Part shown: one piece after another, positions 1 through 14,508 of the stretch
Numbering within the stretch: the first letter of the stretch is position 1
Layout of the letters: each line of letters begins with the position of its first letter
NCBI GenBank assembly: GCA_030427505.1
Contig: JAUICH010000037.1
Span: 1-47,403, forward strand
DNA: 47,403 nucleotides
Source: Verrucomicrobiia bacterium
GTDB lineage: Bacteria > Verrucomicrobiota > Verrucomicrobiia > Verrucomicrobiales > DEV007
Reading direction: 5' to 3'
Translations under genes and position numbers: made by a program
Notes under the pieces: model-generated
The model's database searches: none
What the model was told of the DNA's origin: nothing
Seen by the model: the letters and a program-made list of their open reading frames with translations, nothing else

Positions 1-149
1 AACGAAGACCCCAGCCAAAAAGACCGGGTCGCGTCCTTTTGCCAACGGCTCTTTGTTCAGACCAAGCGCTCATCATTTTAAGGCGGTCAGAGCACTAGGA
101 ACACGCGCGGGGCTTGGATTGCATTGCGAACCAAAAGCCCGCGCGGGGC

Positions 150-842
150 TTACTCCATCCCCAGCTTCTTCAGCTTCGGATGGATGATGACCCGGCAGTA
201 GGGGTAGTTCTTGTTATTCTCGTAGAAGTCCTGGTGATAGTCTTCGGCTTCCCAAAGCGTCGCGGCCTTTTCGATCTCCGTCACCGCCGGAGCGGAATAC
301 TTGCCGGAGACATTCAGTTCCCGCATGGACTTCTCCGCGGCTTCTTTCTGCGCCTCGCTGTGGTAAAAGATCACGGACCGGTACTGCGGGCCCACGTCGT
401 TGCCCTGGCGATCTTTCGTCGTGGGGTCGTGCGCCTGCCAGAAGATGTCCAGCAGCTCTTCATACTTGATCACCTTCGGGTCGAAGGTCACCTGCACCAC
501 CTCGGCGTGTCCGGTGTCTTTCTTGCAGACCTGCTCGTACGTCGGGTGATCCACATGGCCGCCCATGTAGCCGGAGGTCACGTCAGAGACGCCTTCCAGC
601 CGTTCCATCACCGCTTCCACGCACCAGAAGCAGCCGCCCCCAAAAGTGGCCAGTTCCATTCCTTCGGGCGCCGTGGCGGGCGCCGCCTCCAGTTGCTCGT
701 CTTCCTTTTTCACGTCTTCTTTCTTGGCCTCTCGCTTCTCGGGCGCGCCACCATCGGGCTCCGCGCCGGACTGTTCACAAGATACGGTCAGCCCGCCAAT
801 CAAGGCCGCCGTGAGCACTGCAAAAACTTCTTTGGTCATCAT
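150..842 (-). CDS. msrA: Peptide-methionine (S)-S-oxide reductase, lipoprotein-like
   Basis: Reduces methionine-S-sulfoxide in proteins. The MsrA signature GGGCFWC lies at about residues 68-74 with catalytic Cys71, and the usual family tail (YHQDFYENN, then NYPYC) is present. I chose the ATG at 842 (230 aa) over the longer open frame reaching 992, because it starts directly on an export signal (MMTKEVFAVLTAALIGG...) ending at Cys22, a lipobox-like site. An acidic/basic low-complexity linker (about residues 25-60) joins the anchor to the catalytic domain. By inference the enzyme repairs oxidised proteins outside the cytoplasm. It is a single gene with no obvious operon partner. The lipobox is imperfect (Thr at -3), so lipidation is less certain than the enzyme family. 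Confidence 0.93.
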   Translation of the reverse strand: MMTKEVFAVLTAALIGGLTVSCEQSGAEPDGGAPEKREAKKEDVKKEDEQLEAAPATAPEGMELATFGGGCFWCVEAVMERLEGVSDVTSGYMGGHVDHPTYEQVCKKDTGHAEVVQVTFDPKVIKYEELLDIFWQAHDPTTKDRQGNDVGPQYRSVIFYHSEAQKEAAEKSMRELNVSGKYSAPAVTEIEKAATLWEAEDYHQDFYENNKNYPYCRVIIHPKLKKLGME

Positions 843-1171
843 TATCGGTGGAATGGGGTTGTTTGCTCTTTCTACCTCTGCCGGGTTAGACGTTTCCAGG
901 CGCTGGCCGTTCGCTTTTCGGAAAGCCTTCGCGGTCCGCCGCCAGGGTCCAATATGACCGGCTCCTACTGAGACGGAAAGCGTTTCCGCCACCTTACCAA
1001 AAGTCTCTCCGGGACTGAAAATGCTTAAGCTACCTTAATTATTAAGGGTGACGCGTATAAACTTCAGGGGGATGTTTACTCCCCATTTTCAGTCAAATCG
1101 GACCCGAATTTTCTATCTTTCACAATTTCTGAAATTACCGTATTCGAAATAAAGAAACAAACGAGAAATTC

Positions 1172-1972: not shown

Positions 1973-4276
1973 CTATTGGGTCCACGCTTCCGCTGTCGTC
2001 CTGCTCTTGGAATTCTCGCGAAGCATCTCCCAGAAAAGGGAGGCGTCCAAATGAAGGTCCAGCTGATCCCGGCTTGGCAGGCTTGAGCGGCCGATAAGAC
2101 TTCTGCCGCCTGTTTCATTGGCCGGAAAGCGCACGCACATTTCAATGATCGCTTCCAACGAACGCGCCCCGTGGTGAAACCTGGGTACGTTTAGTAGAGC
2201 AGCCAGCAGTCCGTCATCTTCAATCTTAACTCTCTGCCTCGCGAAATATGAATGTAAAAGGATCGCCCGGCGAATCTTCCAATCTGGATATTCTTCTTCA
2301 TCATTGAAATTCTCCGGCTTATTCAACGGTGGAACATTGTGAATCCCGCGGAGCCGGCTGATAAAGTCTGGGCCCTTAGCTGCACAAAAGTCCCGGTCAC
2401 GCTGCCGGCTGCTGAACTCTCCGAAAGAGTGGTTGATACCTCCCGCAAAGATGAAAATTGCCGGACCTGTATGGTGTAGCGAAGCTCCCTCGCGGAACTT
2501 CCCATCCTGCATGGGCATCAGAAAGTACTGCAACCAGCCAAAAGCACGAGATTCGAACTCCGCGTCAAACTCGTCGAAAATCACCACGGGAACTTCGCCT
2601 GTTTCCAATCTCAGATCCCGAACCGCGTGCAACGCGGAACACAAATCATCCAGAGAGGTGAACTGCGCCACATTGTACTCCAGAGGTTCATTGGAAACCG
2701 GTTGATTCCAATCATGGAGGCTTTTCGCGATCTCTTTGACGCCAAACGATTTGCCACTACCTGGGGCGCCAAAGACGCCTACACACAACGGGCGCTTCGG
2801 GTGCAACTGCCCCAAATAAGTAAAGAAGATCTGTTGAAGACTAATGAGGCCATCAATCTCATTGCGATCCATTGAATTGACTTTCCCCAACGCAAAGACC
2901 CGATACGGCAATCCCAGCCTACCATCCTGCTTTCGTGACTCATTACGGGCGCCCAGGGGCCCTTTGCGGGCGATCTCGATAGCTAGCTTATCCCATATAG
3001 CCGGCTTTGCCCCGCGGTCTTGTGGTAAGTCTTTCCACTGGTCTTCACAGACCTCGCGAAACAAGGTCCAGTAGTTCCGGTAGCAGAGCTTGTCTCCGTC
3101 CAGCACTTCAATCCTGTGAACATCTGGACGATGGAGGGGCTCTTTATCCCAATAATTCCCTGAGTCGTCTTTGCGAGGATCGCAACGGTCCAGGAATCTA
3201 TGGAAAGGCAGCCCCTTATCCTTCTTCCAAGTATCAATATTTGCCTTGTCCCGCTGGTCGGCAAAACCCCTCTTCAGCATAAGCCACATGCGCTTCAGGC
3301 CCGTCTCAAGAATATCCTCCCGCTCCTCCAGAACATTGAGATTCCCGGAAGCCACCATCGCCGCCAGTATGAAGTCAAATCCGACGTTTCCCTCCCGATA
3401 GCGCACCCAAGCCTGGCGGTCACCTTCTATTATATAGTATAGATCTGCCGTAAACTGCCCCGGCTCAGCTTCACCGCGGAGATAAAAATGTAAGACTGCA
3501 TCCGCCCGGATTCGCACGATCACCTCGTCAAAATTCGACAAGAATTTCTGCGTCTTCTCTATGTTTTCGATAGAATTATTGTGCGATTCAACTTCCGTCC
3601 GGCTACAGACAACCCCATAGATATCCTCTACCGCCGCAGACGTGGATCCATCTTCACGAATACGGAAGCCCGCATCGCGAAATGCCCGCACGTAGGTAAT
3701 CAAGATTCTTCGGCCTCTAATGCTACCTGCACCTTCCAATTCGATTTTCTCCAAATGCTCGACAGGCCCGGTCTGAGCAGGACCCGGAAGGATTCCCAAG
3801 ACAAATATCCATGGGATGGAGTTTAACTTCTCATCCCCGATACGACGCTCCACTTGGGCCCTAAAGTGTTCGACTCCACTGACCCGCTCCCCAAGATCAT
3901 CGTCAGAGCTGCGAACGAACTGCTCCGCGGCCTCGTAGTTCCGCAAAACCGCAACCACCTTTTCAGGCGGCCAGAGTTTCTTTTTCCCGAGCGGTGGGTC
4001 ATGGGCAACAGATACTTCCCGCGTAACAGTGTGCCGTTTGGAAGGTATCGATCGCAGCTTTCCATCTTCAAAGGCAAAGACTGCGCTGACCCCGGTTCCT
4101 ATGGAACCAATCTGGTCCAACGAAATCTGATCGAAGCCCGCTGCCTCAAAGATTTTTTCCGCCAAGTCGATTCCGCCGGGAATTCTCAGCAGCCAAGGCG
4201 GACGGCCGTTGTCCAACGACAGCTTGGCTTCGTCCTGACTGACAAAACCGATCAGCAATGTTCCCGATTCCTTCAT
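1973..4276 (-). CDS. Large AAA+ ATPase protein, partner of the KaiC-like gene
   Basis: A 767-residue protein of unknown function. The C-terminal third is a P-loop ATPase of AAA+ type: Walker A GAPGSGKS (Lys about residue 509), Walker B VVIFDEFD (about 564-571), then a region ending in RLRG and a helical tail (RFHHGARSLEAIIEM) like an AAA+ lid. Residues 1-450 belong to no family I can name. The segment around residues 235-340 faintly resembles ribokinase-like folds, with low certainty. No signal peptide or membrane segment, so it is probably cytoplasmic. I chose the ATG at 4276, because it overlaps the upstream stop codon as ATGA; the frame stays open to 4444 but that part lies inside the upstream gene. 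The overlap implies translational coupling and joint function. The gene ends facing the folded element at 1758-1902. Confidence 0.75.
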   Translation of the reverse strand: MKESGTLLIGFVSQDEAKLSLDNGRPPWLLRIPGGIDLAEKIFEAAGFDQISLDQIGSIGTGVSAVFAFEDGKLRSIPSKRHTVTREVSVAHDPPLGKKKLWPPEKVVAVLRNYEAAEQFVRSSDDDLGERVSGVEHFRAQVERRIGDEKLNSIPWIFVLGILPGPAQTGPVEHLEKIELEGAGSIRGRRILITYVRAFRDAGFRIREDGSTSAAVEDIYGVVCSRTEVESHNNSIENIEKTQKFLSNFDEVIVRIRADAVLHFYLRGEAEPGQFTADLYYIIEGDRQAWVRYREGNVGFDFILAAMVASGNLNVLEEREDILETGLKRMWLMLKRGFADQRDKANIDTWKKDKGLPFHRFLDRCDPRKDDSGNYWDKEPLHRPDVHRIEVLDGDKLCYRNYWTLFREVCEDQWKDLPQDRGAKPAIWDKLAIEIARKGPLGARNESRKQDGRLGLPYRVFALGKVNSMDRNEIDGLISLQQIFFTYLGQLHPKRPLCVGVFGAPGSGKSFGVKEIAKSLHDWNQPVSNEPLEYNVAQFTSLDDLCSALHAVRDLRLETGEVPVVIFDEFDAEFESRAFGWLQYFLMPMQDGKFREGASLHHTGPAIFIFAGGINHSFGEFSSRQRDRDFCAAKGPDFISRLRGIHNVPPLNKPENFNDEEEYPDWKIRRAILLHSYFARQRVKIEDDGLLAALLNVPRFHHGARSLEAIIEMCVRFPANETGGRSLIGRSSLPSRDQLDLHLDASLFWEMLRENSKSRTTAEAWTQ

Positions 4277-7200
4277 CTGTCTATGGTGTTGACGCCTGCT
4301 TCTCCCGGGGCACCTCTTCTCTGTTCTTCCTTTATGTCCGCCAGAATACGATCGGCAATGCGATTGGCGAGTTTCTGAAAAGTGGCGTTTCCGGCCTCCT
4401 GGGGAACTTTTCCCGCCATTTCCAGTGCGGCGGAAAGGTTCCAATGGATGATCTCGTTCATTCGCCTGACTTCCAGGCTATCTCCAGCCGCTCTTTGGCG
4501 CCGACGCGCTCGGGAGCAGCAGAAGGCCAGCAGATCGGACCAAGTGAGGTATGGAGCGTGCACCACAGGGTCGTTCCCATAGCTTTGGTAAAAGTCTTTT
4601 CGGGCTGGCAGGCCCCCGCCGTGGCGGGCACGTTCCAAAGCGCTCTCCAGAGAAGTCATCTCATCAATGAGTTTACAGGATAGACCGGCGCTATGGGTAT
4701 GCCCATGGACGCCCACCATCCAAATGCCGGTAGCACAGTAACCCACTGGCCTAGGCTTGCCTTGGGGACCACGAAATCCGAGTCGAGTTTCATGCCTTCT
4801 CAAGAATTCCACGACATCCCTATAGTCAGGTTCGATATCTGGTCTGGCGGATTCGACCGCCTTTTCCGGTGTCTTCGGCTCGCTTTGTAGCTCTTTATTC
4901 GTCTCCGTCTCTCTTTTGTCCCCGGGTTCGCTGTGAATGTTCTTTTTTGTAAGATCCGTCCACTCTGGTGGCTCACCGGCGTTACACTCCGGCAAGCGGT
5001 CGAAAGGCAAAAAGTTGGGATCAAGATCCCCGAAATGCAGATTCAAGATCGACTCGCTGAGGTCTTTACGATGCTGGCAATCGTCCTGGAGATCCTCTAC
5101 GAACCGCGCCTCGTCCAAGCCAGAAGGAAAGAAGGGTAAGATCACCAGGTTGGCCGCTTTGGCGGGAGCGATTGTATCGTCCCGCAAAGGCCTGGGCCCA
5201 ATACTGTCACAGAATGTACTATAAAAGTGCCGGCTAAAAAGGGCATCGCAGGATTGATCCAATGAAGGATCACTCGGCATCAACCGATGTTGCACCAGAT
5301 ATACCAGAAGTCTTACCGCCCAGCGGACCGCAGTGTTGTTACGCTCTTGCTTTTTAGGATCTGCTTCAGCAAACGTATTCTCCGAGCTGCCAAAGGCCCA
5401 GCAAAGCTCCAGAAACATTACCCCAGCCGTTTCCGGAGTGGCCAAGTCAAAAACGAATCCCCACTTGTCAGGAATCTTTACCTTCAGTTCCTTCATCAAA
5501 TTGACCAAGAGTTCTCCTTTTCTCTTATGATCCGGAGGTGCGAACCATTCCTTATCCGGAAGGGCCCAAATTCTTGGCAGGCTGGAGACCGCCGCATCCC
5601 AATCATCTCTGTCCCAGCGTCCGCTTGCAAGTGTGGAGAAACCTTTCCTGAGTAGTGGCGCGTTTTCGACAGACGATGGGTGTGAATTCGGAGAACTCCT
5701 GGGCCAGTTTGAAACGACCTTCCGCGCCAGGTCGTGGTTGACACAAAACATGCCGTAGTCCGCGTATAGCGGCAGCGCCACGATCTCTCCCCTCTGATCA
5801 GGGTTTGGCTTCATCAGCACCTTCTGCAAATCCCAGGCCCAGAAGTCGCTGGTCCGCGTCCGGAGGGGATTCTGGCTGTCTTCCGCCCCCCGGGCGGCGC
5901 GAAAGGGATCCAGCGGTAAGAGCCGGCTAAGACTGTTGGAACGATTGTATCTTCTTCGTTCCAAGACGGTCAGGTCGTGGACGACCCATTCGTCTAACAT
6001 CAGGACTCTAACATGCGACGCTGGGAACCGCTGCTCCGTGACGGAGAGTTCTCTGAGCGTCCGCGCGATGGCTGCCCTGGTGAAGCCAAATACCTTAGTT
6101 TCGTAATTGAATACTCTGCTTAGGCGGTCCCGAGTAAGCTCGATGCAATTCTCTTCCGCCACATTCTCATGAAAAAGCTGCAAAGCCAGTTTAACCGGCC
6201 CGGGCTGGTCACTGAGAAGGCCGGTATAGGATTCCAAGCCAGGTTCGATTCGCACGGGGGGCCTGCCCCCACTCGAGGGCTTTACGACCCTAATCTCGCG
6301 CACCGTTCTATCATGGTTCTCTCCGCGAACTTTGGCCAGGTAGATGGCATTTCTCCATTCGTCTTCTATAGGGACCCGGCGAATCACGATCAGATTGTCC
6401 GCAAGGGCGGAAAGGCGCGGTAAATCAACCTCAGATCCACCGCTGACGCCAGACGGTTCAAAAGTGAGGAAAAGAGTAATCTTCTCTTTTGCCAGATCCG
6501 CGATAGTAGCAAGGAGACGCTCTATGAGCTGAGCATATTCTTCTTCTCCAGTAGTCGAGAGCAGGCTTAACAAACCGTCGATGGCAATGCGAGTGATACC
6601 GTATCGCTCGACGACAAACCTCACTTCCGCCAGGAAGCAATTCACGTCCAGGTTTCCGCGACGACGATACAGGGAGCGAAGTGTAAGCAATTCCTCTTGA
6701 CGAACTTTGTCAGGAAAACTCGCAACGATCTCTTTGAACGGAAGTTCGAAGTTGATAAACAAACACCGCCCGCAGGCGCCCGAGTTCTTTTCCTCCTCTC
6801 GTGGTTCTGCTTTCGAGACGGTTTTTCCCGCTGAACTCTCATTCTTCTTCCGAGATGATTTGGCGGTGGATCCGGCTGCTCCCTCAGCAAGCAGGAACTG
6901 CAGGCAAATGTTGGTCTTACCGACCCCCGCAGGCCCCAGAACCACCGTGGTACTGCCGCGACGAAGATTCTCTGCGTGCTCTTTCGAAGAATCCAGGCCG
7001 AGTTCGCGCTCGGTCCAGTAGGCCCGCCCCCTGGGATCATCGCCGAAACGCATCATTTCGTCCAAACCTGGTATCCCTGTCCAGATTCCCTTGTCACTAT
7101 TCTTGCCGGGTTTTTGTTCTGCGGCGTAACCGGACTTTTGCTCAGCTCCGACACCGGAAGCTTTCTTTGGCGAATTCAACTTTCCAATTGGGCTAAGAGC

Positions 7201-8205
7201 CGCAGCAGGAAAGATCACGGCGGTAGCCCATCTAGGTTCGGGCTCAGACGCAGCCTTCTTATTTGCTTCTTCCGCTTCTTCCGCTTCTTCCGCTTCTTCC
7301 GCTTCTTCCGCTTCTTCCGCTTCTTCCGCTTCTTCCGCTTTCCAAATTTTTCCGAGAACCGTCTCAGCTCTGGCCAACCTCTTAATCTCTTGACACAGTT
7401 GCTCTTGAGATATGACCGCGCTCACTCCATCCCTGTCCACCATCGCCCAGGTATGATGCCCCAGGCGCATAAAGGCTCCGTGAGATTTAATGACCTCCAG
7501 CGTACGTAAACGGCGCCCCCCTCCGGTTCGCTCTACGGCCAGTCGCATAACGAAATCCACCACATAGTCCTCAACAGACACTTCGGTGGAGCGGTCGGTC
7601 GTTTCTTCCGAAGTAAAGATCGTCAAAGCAACCTGATCTCGTCCCAGAGCGGTTTCCAAGCGGCTAACGAATTCATGCGTCTGCCGCCGCTCTTCGCCAC
7701 GATCGCGGCAATCCCGGAGAAGGGCCGTAAGACTATCGACAATTACAAACCCTTTGGTGCCGGGCGAATGCTTGGCATGGCGCTGGCGCAACTCCACCAG
7801 CAGCGAATTGATCAGTTCCTCGGAAGTCGGAACCGGACGGCTGAGTTCCACCCGAGCGGAGACCAGCGAAAACCGCACCTTCGGCGAACCTGACTCAATC
7901 CGCCCAAAAATAGGATCGCTCTTGTCAAACCAGCCGGTGGACTCAAAGTTTCGCTTCATGCGGCCCCAATCCAATTCTCCCGCCACGAAGTAGACGACGT
8001 GATCCTCGCGAATTTTCGGCTGGATACCGTCCGTTTCTCTGAACATCATGCTCCGTGCTAGAGCGAGAGCCATGAACGACTTTCCCGCACCGGGAACCCC
8101 AGTGAGAAGAACGCTCGCGCCCTGAGGGAAACCTCCTTCCTGGTTAACAAACAGAGATCCGCAATCAAAAATTTGAGGTTCGTAAGTGCTGGGGGAGTCA
8201 CTCAT
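4273..8205 (-). CDS. Double KaiC-like ATPase with a solute-binding-like C-terminal region
   Basis: A 1310-residue, probably cytoplasmic protein. Two RecA/KaiC-type ATPase domains are visible. The first has Walker A GVPGAGKS (Lys42) and a Walker B-like FVIVDS (Asp about 157). The second has GPAGVGKT (Lys about 430) and IAIDG (Asp about 543). A repetitive (EEA)8 linker at about residues 290-313 joins them. From about 780 to 1230 the sequence resembles family-1 extracellular solute-binding proteins: an ALPLYADYGMF segment (about 810), an FLELCWAFG segment, and a late TGIWMVGV segment. There is no signal peptide, so this part would sense a ligand inside the cell; that is inference. First gene of a two-gene operon. 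The 210 bp upstream (8206-8415) are AT-rich and must hold the promoter, but I see no clear hexamers. Composition looks less GC-rich than its neighbours, as in acquired DNA. Confidence 0.8.
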   Translation of the reverse strand: MSDSPSTYEPQIFDCGSLFVNQEGGFPQGASVLLTGVPGAGKSFMALALARSMMFRETDGIQPKIREDHVVYFVAGELDWGRMKRNFESTGWFDKSDPIFGRIESGSPKVRFSLVSARVELSRPVPTSEELINSLLVELRQRHAKHSPGTKGFVIVDSLTALLRDCRDRGEERRQTHEFVSRLETALGRDQVALTIFTSEETTDRSTEVSVEDYVVDFVMRLAVERTGGGRRLRTLEVIKSHGAFMRLGHHTWAMVDRDGVSAVISQEQLCQEIKRLARAETVLGKIWKAEEAEEAEEAEEAEEAEEAEEAEEANKKAASEPEPRWATAVIFPAAALSPIGKLNSPKKASGVGAEQKSGYAAEQKPGKNSDKGIWTGIPGLDEMMRFGDDPRGRAYWTERELGLDSSKEHAENLRRGSTTVVLGPAGVGKTNICLQFLLAEGAAGSTAKSSRKKNESSAGKTVSKAEPREEEKNSGACGRCLFINFELPFKEIVASFPDKVRQEELLTLRSLYRRRGNLDVNCFLAEVRFVVERYGITRIAIDGLLSLLSTTGEEEYAQLIERLLATIADLAKEKITLFLTFEPSGVSGGSEVDLPRLSALADNLIVIRRVPIEDEWRNAIYLAKVRGENHDRTVREIRVVKPSSGGRPPVRIEPGLESYTGLLSDQPGPVKLALQLFHENVAEENCIELTRDRLSRVFNYETKVFGFTRAAIARTLRELSVTEQRFPASHVRVLMLDEWVVHDLTVLERRRYNRSNSLSRLLPLDPFRAARGAEDSQNPLRTRTSDFWAWDLQKVLMKPNPDQRGEIVALPLYADYGMFCVNHDLARKVVSNWPRSSPNSHPSSVENAPLLRKGFSTLASGRWDRDDWDAAVSSLPRIWALPDKEWFAPPDHKRKGELLVNLMKELKVKIPDKWGFVFDLATPETAGVMFLELCWAFGSSENTFAEADPKKQERNNTAVRWAVRLLVYLVQHRLMPSDPSLDQSCDALFSRHFYSTFCDSIGPRPLRDDTIAPAKAANLVILPFFPSGLDEARFVEDLQDDCQHRKDLSESILNLHFGDLDPNFLPFDRLPECNAGEPPEWTDLTKKNIHSEPGDKRETETNKELQSEPKTPEKAVESARPDIEPDYRDVVEFLRRHETRLGFRGPQGKPRPVGYCATGIWMVGVHGHTHSAGLSCKLIDEMTSLESALERARHGGGLPARKDFYQSYGNDPVVHAPYLTWSDLLAFCCSRARRRQRAAGDSLEVRRMNEIIHWNLSAALEMAGKVPQEAGNATFQKLANRIADRILADIKEEQRRGAPGEAGVNTIDR
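7265..7336 (-). repeat. 9-bp in-frame microsatellite, eight copies
   Basis: Eight perfect copies of GCTTCTTCC (plus strand) lie inside the KaiC-like gene and encode (EEA)8 on the minus strand. A partial ninth copy follows. Because the unit is 9 bp, copy-number changes keep the frame and only alter the length of the acidic linker between the two ATPase domains. Confidence 0.95.
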
Positions 8206-10017: not shown

Positions 10018-10092
10018 GCGCGATTAGCTCAGGGGTAGAGCGCTTGCTTCACACGCAAGAAGTCGCAGGTTCAAATCCTGCATCGCGCACCA
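10018..10092 (+). tRNA. tRNA-Val(CAC)
   Basis: A complete cloverleaf. The acceptor GCGCGAT (10018-10024) pairs with ATCGCGC (10082-10088). D stem GCTC/GAGC. The anticodon stem CTTGC/GCAAG encloses loop TTCACAC, giving anticodon CAC (valine, GTG codons). The variable loop is AAGTC, and the T stem GCAGG/CCTGC has loop TTCAAAT. Discriminator A10089 is followed by an encoded CCA (10090-10092). I see no integrase or direct repeat of the 3' end nearby, so there is no sign that it serves as an attachment site. Confidence 0.97.
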
Positions 10093-11701: not shown

Positions 11702-13102
11702 TCACTCCGCGCCGTAGCGTTCTTTCGCGTAGGCATTCACCTCCGCTTCCCAGGCTTCCCACGCGTTGGCCAACTCCCGCACCCGGTCCGGCTCGGCTTC
11801 CGCCAGATTTGTTGTTTCGCCTAGGTCGTTGCCCAGGTGGTATAACTCCGGTTTCCCTTTTGGCTTGGTCAGACAGTATTTCCAGGGACCGCTCCGCGCC
11901 GCCCGCCGCGGACCGAGCCGCCAGAAAAGCTTTCGCTCCGGCAGGGCTTCCCCGCGCAGCAGCAACGGCGAGAGATCCACGCCATCGGTCTCCATTTCTT
12001 CGCTAGGCTCGCTGCCCGTCAAGGCTATAAGAGTGGGCAGCAGATCCGCGGAGTGTCCCAACTCATCCGTTACGCTGGGCGCGATGTGGCCCGGCCAGGA
12101 AACGATCATCGGCACCCGGTGTCCGCCTTCATACACCTGCCCCTTCTGACCCCGTAGCGGCCCATTGCTCGAAATGTCGCGGAACTTCGCGCCGTAGGTC
12201 AGGTAGCCGCCGTTGTCCGAGGTGAAGATCACCACCGTCCGCTCTCTCAACCCCAGCCGGTCCAGCGCGGCCACGATCTCGCCCACGCTCCTGTCCAAGG
12301 CTTCCACCATGGCCTTGATGTGCGTGCTGACGTGGGCCGGGTCCGGGATGATGCCCCACTTGTCGTCTCCGTAGTCACCGCCCTTCTGCCGGTGTGGCGG
12401 ATCGTCCGGTCCCTGCCAGGGAAAATGGATCAGCAAATGCGGCAGGTAGAGGAAAAACGGTTCGTCGCGGTGCCGCTCCATGAAATCGATGCTGTGCCGG
12501 GTCAGCAGGTCCGCCGCATAGCCCTTCTCCATCTTCAGTTCGTGCCCATGCCACCAGTCTTCCCGGCCCCAGCGGTCGATGTGGGTGTGGTGATCGCCGT
12601 CCCCCGCGGACAGTCCGCGCCATTCGTCGAAGCCCTGGTCCGGCGGCAGCCAGGGCGCCTGATAGCCCAGGTGCCATTTCCCCATGCATGCCGTGGCATA
12701 CCCCGCCGGCTTCAGCCAATCCGCCACCGTCACCGCCTCCGGCGGCAGCCCGGTGTCCCGGTCGTGCACGCCGGACAGCGCCCCATCGAACTGGGGACCG
12801 AAGCGCTGCTGATAGAGCCCCGTCAACATCGCCGCCCGCGTGGGCGTGCACATGGGACCCGCCGAATGAAAGTCCGTAAACCTCACCCCCTCCGCCGCCA
12901 GGGCATCGATATGCGGCGTTTCATTCACCGCGCTGCCATAACACCCCAGATCCCCATACCCCAAGTCATCCCCCACGATCAGCACTACATTCAACCTCTC
13001 CGCCCCCTGACAAACCACCCATCCAGCAACTAACAAAGTAACCACAAACAAGCCGCCAAACACCCCACCTCCCGCTCTACCTCTAAATTCAACATCCGCC
13101 AT
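11702..13102 (-). CDS. Secreted sulfatase (formylglycine-dependent)
   Basis: A 466-residue sulfatase with GDDLGYGD (about residues 44-51), maturation motif CTPTR (Cys85), GKWHLGY and FTSDNGGY, and the C-terminal LGNDLGETT segment. The export signal covers about residues 15-34 (FGGLFVVTLLVAGWVVC). I chose the ATG at 13102, three bases after AAGGAGAC. The frame stays open through the tandem repeat to a GTG at 13228 that overlaps the sialidase stop codon as GTGA. Starting there would add 42 residues of RQGDKETR repeats in front of the signal peptide, which seems unlikely for an exported enzyme but is possible through coupling. The repeat makes expression of this gene potentially variable. Probably in one operon with the sialidase-like gene. 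Confidence 0.93.
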   Translation of the reverse strand: MADVEFRGRAGGGVFGGLFVVTLLVAGWVVCQGAERLNVVLIVGDDLGYGDLGCYGSAVNETPHIDALAAEGVRFTDFHSAGPMCTPTRAAMLTGLYQQRFGPQFDGALSGVHDRDTGLPPEAVTVADWLKPAGYATACMGKWHLGYQAPWLPPDQGFDEWRGLSAGDGDHHTHIDRWGREDWWHGHELKMEKGYAADLLTRHSIDFMERHRDEPFFLYLPHLLIHFPWQGPDDPPHRQKGGDYGDDKWGIIPDPAHVSTHIKAMVEALDRSVGEIVAALDRLGLRERTVVIFTSDNGGYLTYGAKFRDISSNGPLRGQKGQVYEGGHRVPMIVSWPGHIAPSVTDELGHSADLLPTLIALTGSEPSEEMETDGVDLSPLLLRGEALPERKLFWRLGPRRAARSGPWKYCLTKPKGKPELYHLGNDLGETTNLAEAEPDRVRELANAWEAWEAEVNAYAKERYGAE

Positions 13103-13103
13103 A

Positions 13104-13221
13104 GTCTCCTTGTCTCCTTGTCTCCTTGTCTCCTTGTCTCCTTGTCTCCTTGTCTCCTTGTCTCCTTGTCTCCTTGTCTCCTTGTCTCCTTGTCTCCTTG
13201 TCTCCTTGTCTCCTTGTCTCC
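13104..13221 (-). repeat. 8-bp tandem array of Shine-Dalgarno-like units
   Basis: Fourteen perfect copies of GTCTCCTT (13104-13215) plus a 6-base partial copy fill the gap between the sialidase-like gene and the second sulfatase. Read in gene direction each unit is AAGGAGAC, containing a full Shine-Dalgarno hexamer. The copy nearest the sulfatase start is 3 nt from the ATG and the next is 11 nt. Since 8 is not a multiple of 3, gain or loss of one unit also shifts any reading frame that crosses the array. Confidence 0.97.
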
Positions 13222-13224
13222 ACC

Positions 13225-14508
13225 TCACCGGCTCGTCTTGCTCTCCTTCTTCCCCAGCGCCAATTCCACGGACTCCGGCATCTCCAGAGCGTCCAGATCT
13301 GAAAGCCGCACCTTCACTACTTCCACGGTTTGCTTGTTCCCGGCAAATGCCACCAGCAGGAAGCCGTCGTGCTCCAGCACGCAGGGGTAATCGACATGCC
13401 GCCCGCCAAAGAGGTAGAACAGCTTCGTGAACACCAGACCGTCATCGCTGATCGCCAAGGTCAGGGGATCGCGCCGGAACGGATTGCTGTTAGACACCAG
13501 CACATAACGTCCGTCGCTCAGCCGCTGACCGTGAATCTTAGACGTGGCGTCCGGAAAGTTCGTTTTCACCGGCGGGCTCCAGGAACGGCCGTCGTCTGAG
13601 GAGAACGAACGGTAGAGAAACTTGCTCTGCCGGTTGTCGCGAAAGAGCGCCACCAGGTTCTTGTCCGGAAGCATCCACCACAGCGGCTCCTCCGCGGACA
13701 GCTCGCTGCTCGTTCCCAGAATGGGAAAGGACTGCCAGTCATCGATCGCCTTCTGCCCACCTATCAACACCTTCACGCCTGTTGTTTTGTAGTCGTAGGG
13801 GCGGCGCGTCATCATCCACTCGCCCGTCCCGATCTGCTTGGGAGGAAAGTTATTGATGGCATCGTCCGCGATCACCCCGGCGTCTTCCCAGGATATTTCT
13901 CCCGCGTCATTCAGGCTAAACCGGAAGGCGTGCAGTTCCAAACTCGGCCCAAAGAAACCCGCCGCCTCGTCGAGAGAAACCAGGGCATACAGCTCGTTTT
14001 CCACCCGCTGCCAAAACCCGCGCGAGATCCAGCGAAAGCCCTCCTCCGTGCGCTTTCCATAGAGGGGCGAGTCCGGGCCAAACCCTTTGGGCATGGGCGT
14101 CAGATACTCCGGCTCCGACCAGTTCAGACCGTCCGGGCTGGTGGCATACTTCACCCGCTGACCCACCTGGTCCTCTTTGCCGGGTCCGTCGCTCCACATG
14201 GCCAGGTAACGCCCAGCGTGATGGACCAGGTAGTTGTGCTGGTTCACGCCATCCGCCGCCCGCACGTCACTCACCACCACGTGCTCCGAAGGAACGAGCG
14301 GCAGCTTGGTGAAATCGATCCGGTGCGGGTCCGCCGGCACCCAGGCCCCCGCCAGCATCAAGGGCGACGCGGGGTTCGCTTGGGGGTCGGGCCAGTTCGG
14401 CTCTGACCGGTGAGTTTCCTGGGCAAGGCAACTGTTTCCCCAGACAAGGAACGCCGCCAAACAAGAGCCGCAAAGGAAGCCAACCAATGGAGGCAAAGAG
14501 GGTTTCAC
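13225..14508 (-). CDS. Sialidase-like (BNR/Asp-box propeller) secreted protein
   Basis: A 427-residue exported protein (signal peptide about residues 1-29, ending SCLAQE). Several Asp-box motifs of the sialidase beta-propeller are visible: SPDGLNWSEP (about 120), SSDDGRSWSPP (about 305) and the weaker SDDGLVFT (about 355). Such motifs also occur in non-sialidase propellers, so exo-sialidase activity is not assured. The catalytic Arg triad and Tyr/Glu pair could not be assigned by eye. It is the first gene of the probable sialidase-sulfatase pair, and its TGA overlaps a GTG that opens the frame through the Shine-Dalgarno array. The context suggests glycan trimming together with desulfation. 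Confidence 0.8.
   Translation of the reverse strand: MKPSLPPLVGFLCGSCLAAFLVWGNSCLAQETHRSEPNWPDPQANPASPLMLAGAWVPADPHRIDFTKLPLVPSEHVVVSDVRAADGVNQHNYLVHHAGRYLAMWSDGPGKEDQVGQRVKYATSPDGLNWSEPEYLTPMPKGFGPDSPLYGKRTEEGFRWISRGFWQRVENELYALVSLDEAAGFFGPSLELHAFRFSLNDAGEISWEDAGVIADDAINNFPPKQIGTGEWMMTRRPYDYKTTGVKVLIGGQKAIDDWQSFPILGTSSELSAEEPLWWMLPDKNLVALFRDNRQSKFLYRSFSSDDGRSWSPPVKTNFPDATSKIHGQRLSDGRYVLVSNSNPFRRDPLTLAISDDGLVFTKLFYLFGGRHVDYPCVLEHDGFLLVAFAGNKQTVEVVKVRLSDLDALEMPESVELALGKKESKTSR

Follow-up and report, generated by a model that had tools for sequence, protein, structure and literature searches.

Analysis of a whole contig from a Verrucomicrobiia bacterium (JAUICH010000037.1; 47,403 nucleotides, hereafter the window, from a genome of 6.4 Mb in 56 contigs) reveals a gene pair whose first protein carries two KaiC-type ATPase domains followed by a predicted MalE-type solute-binding protein (SBP) domain, and whose second protein ends in an AAA+ domain. 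The pair is real and rare, and its domain combination is new to the literature searched, although its parts are of known kinds. We tentatively read the pair as a mobile two-gene switch in which a cytosolic ligand would gate ATPase activity, most likely for conflict or as a stress alarm, and on the sequences at hand we find this reading plausible. The ligand, the contact between the two proteins and the role in defence are the parts of it that we infer. An earlier note on this DNA had described two genes overlapping by a four-nucleotide ATGA, and both open frames and the overlap are seen. The features of the pair are listed here by window coordinates.

4273..8205, minus strand: gene 1, encoding the KaiC-KaiC-SBP protein of 1310 amino acids (open frame; homologues of 1122-1408 amino acids in four other genomes)
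7423..8139, minus strand: first KaiC domain, residues 23-261 (best stretch of PF06745; P-loop GVPGAGKS at residue 36)
7265..7340, minus strand: (EEA)n linker between the KaiC domains, a perfect 9-base-pair tandem repeat of 8.4 copies
6256..7083, minus strand: second KaiC domain, about residues 375-650 (matches to the second halves of KaiC proteins; P-loop GPAGVGKT at residue 424)
4336..6198, minus strand: predicted MalE-type SBP domain, about residues 670-1290 (hmmsearch against the PDB; hhalign; a low-confidence model)
4273..4276, minus strand: ATGA stop/start overlap of genes 1 and 2
1973..4276, minus strand: gene 2, encoding the AAA+ partner of 767 amino acids (open frame; homologues directly follow that of gene 1 in four other genomes)
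2912..4276, minus strand: predicted degenerate PfkB-like N-terminal domain of protein 2, about residues 1-455 (two hhalign steps)
1976..2911, minus strand: AAA+ domain of protein 2, about residues 456-767 (motifs; the chain stops 61 residues past HGxRS, without RyR)
1973..8205, no strand: segment of lower guanine-plus-cytosine (GC) content (53.9% versus 60.5% in the remainder of the window)

Profile searches confirm the two KaiC/RecA-type domains that had been proposed for protein 1. Specifically, the Pfam family PF06745 matches in three stretches with an expectation value (E) of 7.4e-28, and KaiC chains in the PDB match as well, the best of them at E 2.1e-19. Residues K42, E77 and D157 of the first domain and E487 and D543 of the second are invariant among the five homologues. 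Protein 1 shares with the KaiC clock protein the tandem arrangement of these domains and their P-loops, but differs from it in the added SBP domain, in the AAA+ partner, and in scores that fall far short of the clock-protein cut-offs (98.6 versus 408 bits for NF006799, and 54.4 versus 546 bits for TIGR02655).

The solute-binding-like region of the earlier note is likewise recovered, and its assignment to this fold rests mainly on sequence profiles, not on a structural model. When a profile of the five homologues is searched against 177,635 distinct PDB sequences, the top two matches are the trehalose/maltose-binding protein (TMBP) 1eu8 (E 4.9e-4) and MalE3 6dtq (E 1.5e-3), and the third and last is an unrelated protein. 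Addition of a sixth, distant homologue brings both to about 5.5e-5, and eight of the nine matches up to E 10 are then sugar-binding proteins, these eight being four different proteins with one in five variants. The profile matches to binding proteins of the MalE/TMBP type, which serve ABC transporters, are collinear in several stretches of protein 1. Comparison by hhalign with ten MalE-type (SBP_bac_1) proteins of the phylum, picked by eye out of 17 loci inspected, gives a score of 41.0 (E 3.3e-4), versus at most 19.4 for 30 column shuffles and 15.0 for the reversed profile. Single-sequence Pfam searches of the five proteins return no SBP family up to E 10, and the distant homologue (G839) alone has no match in the PDB.

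Within this domain the motifs D-E-W, E-L-x-W-A-F-G, G-x-W and P-x-R-x-D-F-Y occupy invariant columns, some of which persist in the distant G839 protein. The G-x-W motif aligns with the GGW of TMBP and MalE3, a position that we take to function in sugar stacking, and all six SBP regions keep it unchanged, which fits a retained stacking position. Together, the conserved columns suggest that a predicted pocket has been kept.

As the earlier note had stated, no export signal is visible. A simple Kyte-Doolittle scan finds no signal-peptide-like start in any of the five KaiC-SBP proteins, and 19-residue means peak at 1.61 in these proteins and at 1.77 in the AAA proteins. Protein 1 departs from the MalE/TMBP type in having no visible export signal, in its long insertions, and in the placement of the domain within an ATPase, at the C-terminus of a 1310-residue chain rather than behind the export or lipid-anchor signal of MalE-like proteins. 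Sections of Kaur et al. 2020 (PMC7159879) describe an extracellular periplasmic-binding domain located behind membrane helices in other conflict systems, and a term search of the text of that paper returns neither KaiC nor RyR.

The AAA+ domain predicted for the end of protein 2 scores below the Pfam curated cut-offs, but its P-loop, DEFD, GPDFISR and HGxRS motifs are invariant in the five homologues. Its closest known counterparts are RyR-domain AAA+ proteins, such as one from plasmid pA of Methylobacterium sp. FF17, whose AAA+ domains are 40-44% identical to that of protein 2 over about 300 amino acids and whose N-terminal regions are also related. Comparison of the two N-terminal regions by hhalign gives E 2.2e-12 and a score of 99.2, with 30 shuffles reaching at most 16.8, when the relatives are represented by 10 of the 13 AAA relatives (G408, G414 and G626 left out). 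The N-terminal region of these relatives in turn matches 14 PfkB proteins, picked by eye from 23 loci, with E 2.8e-6, a probability of 88% and a score of 52.9 (30 shuffles at most 16.6).

A direct assignment of the N-terminus of protein 2 to PfkB was rejected, as profile comparison gave no signal. Similarly, the relatives' profile finds no PfkB structure in the PDB, and a Pfam search of the 10 relatives' N-terminal regions yields one Phos_pyr_kin match only (E 0.0027). The PfkB-like assignment of the N-terminus of protein 2, a region to which the earlier note had given no name, stands solely through profile-profile comparison. The Asp of the PfkB GAGD motif aligns with a Ser in the RyR-AAA relative shown, and it is therefore unlikely that this domain acts as a kinase.

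Most sister proteins of gene 2 carry a C-terminal RyR domain, whereas the AAA protein of the pair has none by Pfam search and is coupled to a KaiC-SBP gene instead. RyR (PF02026) is found at the C-terminus of eight of the 13 other AAA family members: four of the seven proteins of one alignment, the other three being two pair members and a Streptomyces protein, and four of eight further relatives, one of which (G403) scores below the Pfam cut-off. The G626 relative (L046:602-2566) bears SLOG cluster 2 (PF18163; E 2.7e-28) in place of RyR. No RyR is found in the Streptomyces protein, which ends after the AAA domain, or in the G408 relative, and two others (G428 and G414) run to contig ends where RyR is not judgeable. 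Past HGxRS, the five AAA proteins of the pairs have 43-61 residues left, whereas one RyR sister has 219.

A tree of 17 AAA domains places the five pair members on one side of a branch with support of 95/95, and none of 500 label shuffles is as clustered. Eight of its 14 inner branches are open, the G408 sequence was left out (P-loop pattern unmatched), and the G414 and G626 sequences are long rows of unsure placement. The AAA proteins of the pair thus share one origin, as a single clade without the RyR tail. The tree is compatible with loss of RyR in the pair as well as with its gain elsewhere.

The RyR fold binds or cuts cyclic ADP-ribose (cADPR) signals, and its residues H75, W78, H100 and D117 are reported to hold ADP-ribose (ADPR)-type signals, according to sections of a 2026 preprint (PMC13232231). 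An EHxxW motif occurs in all eight RyR-AAA proteins, and a following His with an Asp at +17 in seven of them, at a spacing equal to that of these four residues. Since the signal-holding residues have equivalents by spacing, the RyR-AAA sister proteins may sense ADPR-type signals. TIR-domain genes neighbour the RyR-AAA gene at five loci, those of G403 (L041), G297 (L042), G497 (L044), G083 (L010) and G098 (L011; the TIR match is below the Pfam cut-off); the neighbours were chosen by eye, and these five of the 13 loci are the ones that were scanned. RelA/SpoT-RyR proteins lie near the G403 and G497 AAA genes, the latter one with NUDIX, and a TrkA_N-RyR protein also lies near the G403 gene. These loci have the appearance of a signalling cluster whose sensors are RyR domains. 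The likeness to Thoeris-type cADPR immunity and to the phage protein RyDEP resides in these relatives of gene 2, which pair RyR with nearby TIR genes; the pair itself is without RyR.

KaiC-SBP genes are present in 2 of 288 genomes of the phylum (single-sequence search), 5 of 239 of the order (two-sequence profile) and 3 of 370 of the class (five-sequence profile). The three sets share genomes, and that of the window is part of every count. The distinct genomes are G000, G066, G342, G315, G324 and G839. Of two further contig scans, one gave nothing; the two loci from the other are probably those of G342 and G315 again and are not counted twice. The complete pair occurs in four genomes of the order besides that of the window, five genera in all, and in all five the tandem-KaiC SBP gene lies directly upstream of the AAA gene. 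Conservation does not extend to the ATGA overlap: stop and start are 5-59 bases apart (8-62 including the stop codon) in the four homologous pairs.

The AAA family is found in 5 of 288 and 5 of 337 genomes of the phylum, in 13 of 386 of the order, and in 2 of 72,556 plasmid records. Five of its 18 distinct loci have a KaiC-SBP gene; none was found at the other 13 in the available sequence, in which several loci are cut by contig ends. Phage records and viral contigs hold no relative, and plasmids hold no relative of the solute-binding region. The G839 gene, from another order, encodes one KaiC domain plus the SBP region (L141:9649-12675). Near it are a TerB-like gene and a DEAD-box helicase, both recognised by eye, and an ATP-binding protein with relatives on 689 plasmid records.

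The lower GC content noted for the window pair is a property of all five. The GC content of pair and flanks is 53.9 and 60.5%, 50.8 and 60.2%, 57.7 and 63.1%, 54.5 and 60.6%, and 52.3 and 61.0%, which places the pair 5-9 points under its flanks in every case. At the G066 locus, a stretch of 88 bases from the adjacent SNF2 gene recurs as a direct repeat beyond the pair at 89% identity (L008:8223-8310 and L008:14657-14744), and no flanking repeat longer than 28 bases is found among those listed within 1.9 kb of the other four pairs. The gene pair is probably mobile, judging from these compositions and the G066 repeat.

One pair, that of G315, sits within a DISARM locus (G315:C455:3642-26242; L128, L023, L129), where the order on the minus strand is drmD, drmMI, a protein matched by the PADLOC model PDC-S31, KaiC-SBP, AAA, drmA and drmB; the other strand carries an ImmA/IrrE-like gene. 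For the other four pairs, PADLOC locates no named defence system alongside, among the best 25 of 30 matching families, in a scan of 58 of the 120 open reading frames (ORFs) picked as neighbours plus two unpicked ones; four of the other 62 picked ORFs gave no match. The ORF picker was crude, with some picks on the wrong strand (for example window 114-968), and it may have missed real genes. DpdE and ZorD matches beside the G066 pair were rejected as signs of defence: they correspond to the SNF2 helicase, which has several paralogues per genome in the four genomes searched, and among 14 control genomes one model matches in 10 and the other in 11.

Around the pair in the window, two small plus-strand ORFs of 68 and 77 amino acids (1212-1418 and 1501-1734) separate the pair from a methionine sulfoxide reductase-like gene, and the first of them resembles by eye a small DNA-binding regulator. 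A tRNA-Val (cac) gene at 10018-10092 lies about 1.8 kb past the upstream end of the pair, and a perfect 8-base-pair tandem repeat of 14.8 copies (13104-13221) falls at the start of a sulfatase-like ORF (11702-13228).

At the level of mechanism, we hypothesize that the SBP domain binds a small cytosolic molecule, one that probably contains a sugar, and closes on it. The KaiC domains, expected to assemble into a ring whose state shifts with ATP hydrolysis, would sense this closure. The KaiC-SBP ring would then control the AAA+ ring, which would perform the mechanical output. In this arrangement the pair would hold a sugar-type sensor in trans where its relatives hold a nucleotide-type sensor, RyR, in cis. 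The use of such a switch would most likely be against phages or other elements, or as a related stress alarm, and this is the least certain step of the scheme. A more specific version makes the pair an alarm, for innate immunity or stress, that responds to a cytosolic sugar-type metabolite, with the MalE-like sensor on a KaiC ring replacing RyR or SLOG; so narrow a proposal is unlikely to be correct as it stands.

Several observations weigh against a ligand-gated conflict switch. The hhalign match to MalE-type proteins has a probability of 38% and covers 53 columns near the C-terminus, and the match of the SBP region to 15 PotD-type (SBP_bac_8) proteins is weak (E 0.13). The AlphaFold2 model of the C-terminal region from five homologues is poor, with a predicted local distance difference test (pLDDT) of 42 and a predicted template modelling score of 0.39, and a model from two homologues was discarded at a pLDDT of 30. 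All 50 structures listed by VIA are solute-binding proteins (Z 8.8-10.1), and these matches either span about 105 residues or have a root-mean-square deviation of 10-12 Å. Foldseek gives nothing below E 0.001, and its list includes many maltose-binding-protein entries, often fusions to that protein, plus unrelated ones. The P-loop lysine of the second KaiC domain is missing in one of the five homologues (G315), and no nuclease, membrane or other killing domain is recognised in either protein. Linkage of the two genes, which the earlier note had proposed to test, holds for five of the six KaiC-SBP genes. The outcome that it named as refuting, unlinked homologues, is seen in part: no AAA gene accompanies the G839 gene within 18 kb, and the 13 AAA relatives are without KaiC-SBP in the available sequence. 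Defence genes, in the part scanned, were located around only one of the five pairs, the one inside DISARM.

The pair could instead be a metabolic regulator with no role in conflict, one that adjusts metabolism in response to a sugar or glycan taken up by a polysaccharide-degrading bacterium. The resemblance of the SBP domain to sugar binders is as expected for such a function, as is the setting of the pair: its neighbours in the window read by eye as ordinary enzymes (sulfatase-like and others), and four of the five pairs have no located defence system in the part scanned. However, a patchy spread through 5 of 239 genomes of the order, a lower GC content in each of the five pairs, residence in a DISARM locus and RyR/TIR relatives of gene 2 would all be unusual for a housekeeping function, and we regard this explanation as doubtful, if worth keeping in mind. 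If the SBP domain were a non-binding scaffold, the KaiC and AAA+ proteins might form a constitutive remodelling machine, like MoxR-type AAA+ proteins and their partners. An identity of only 28-34% between the window protein and its homologues over the SBP domain, with long insertions that differ, would be accommodated by such a role, and the bpMoxR model gives a weak match in three of the seven AAA family members scanned. Against this, the invariant SBP columns, with some kept even in the distant G839 protein, suggest a retained pocket and render a passive scaffold quite unlikely.

Finally, the pair might be an accessory part of DISARM or of a similar restriction system. At the G315 locus, drmMI and drmA flank the pair and run in its direction, drmB follows, and after that comes a phospholipase-D-like ORF (L128:2834-3799, recognised by eye). 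Defence loci often take in unrelated systems, and no DISARM locus lies beside the other four pairs in the scanned part; one neighbour ORF does match DrmD models (best 1e-41), and this is most likely the SNF2 helicase that adjoins the G066 pair. The proteins P0001, P0002 and P0004 match no drm model, though the G315 pair sits in a DISARM locus. An accessory role is thus highly improbable.

The earlier note knew of no named system with this combination, and none has emerged. PADLOC assigns the pair proteins to no named defence system. Their similarity to MADS is at the level of the ATPase and weak (mad8 E 3.7e-9 and mad3 E 0.0037 for gene 1; mad8 E 0.015 for gene 2), no mad gene set was located, and the match resembles generic ATPase similarity; one unlocated neighbour ORF of 60 matches mad2 (1.2e-16). 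Full-text searches of the open-access literature found, judging by titles and the opening lines of abstracts, no description of a KaiC-SBP fusion or of this pair, and no characterisation of the RyR-AAA/TIR family. A 2015 paper on nucleotide-centred conflict systems reportedly treats RyR domains, and it may already note the association of RyR-AAA with TIR.

Even if the pair proves to be merely a metabolic switch, its domain combination is one not found in print by these searches. If the proposed ligand-gated conflict or stress switch is correct, then a single AAA+ motor would be served by interchangeable small-molecule sensors: RyR for signals of the ADPR type, SLOG in one relative, and a KaiC-borne solute-binding domain in the pair. 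The RyR-AAA/TIR family would in that case become directly testable, and the sugar-binding fold of a transporter would have been reused as a cytosolic sensor.

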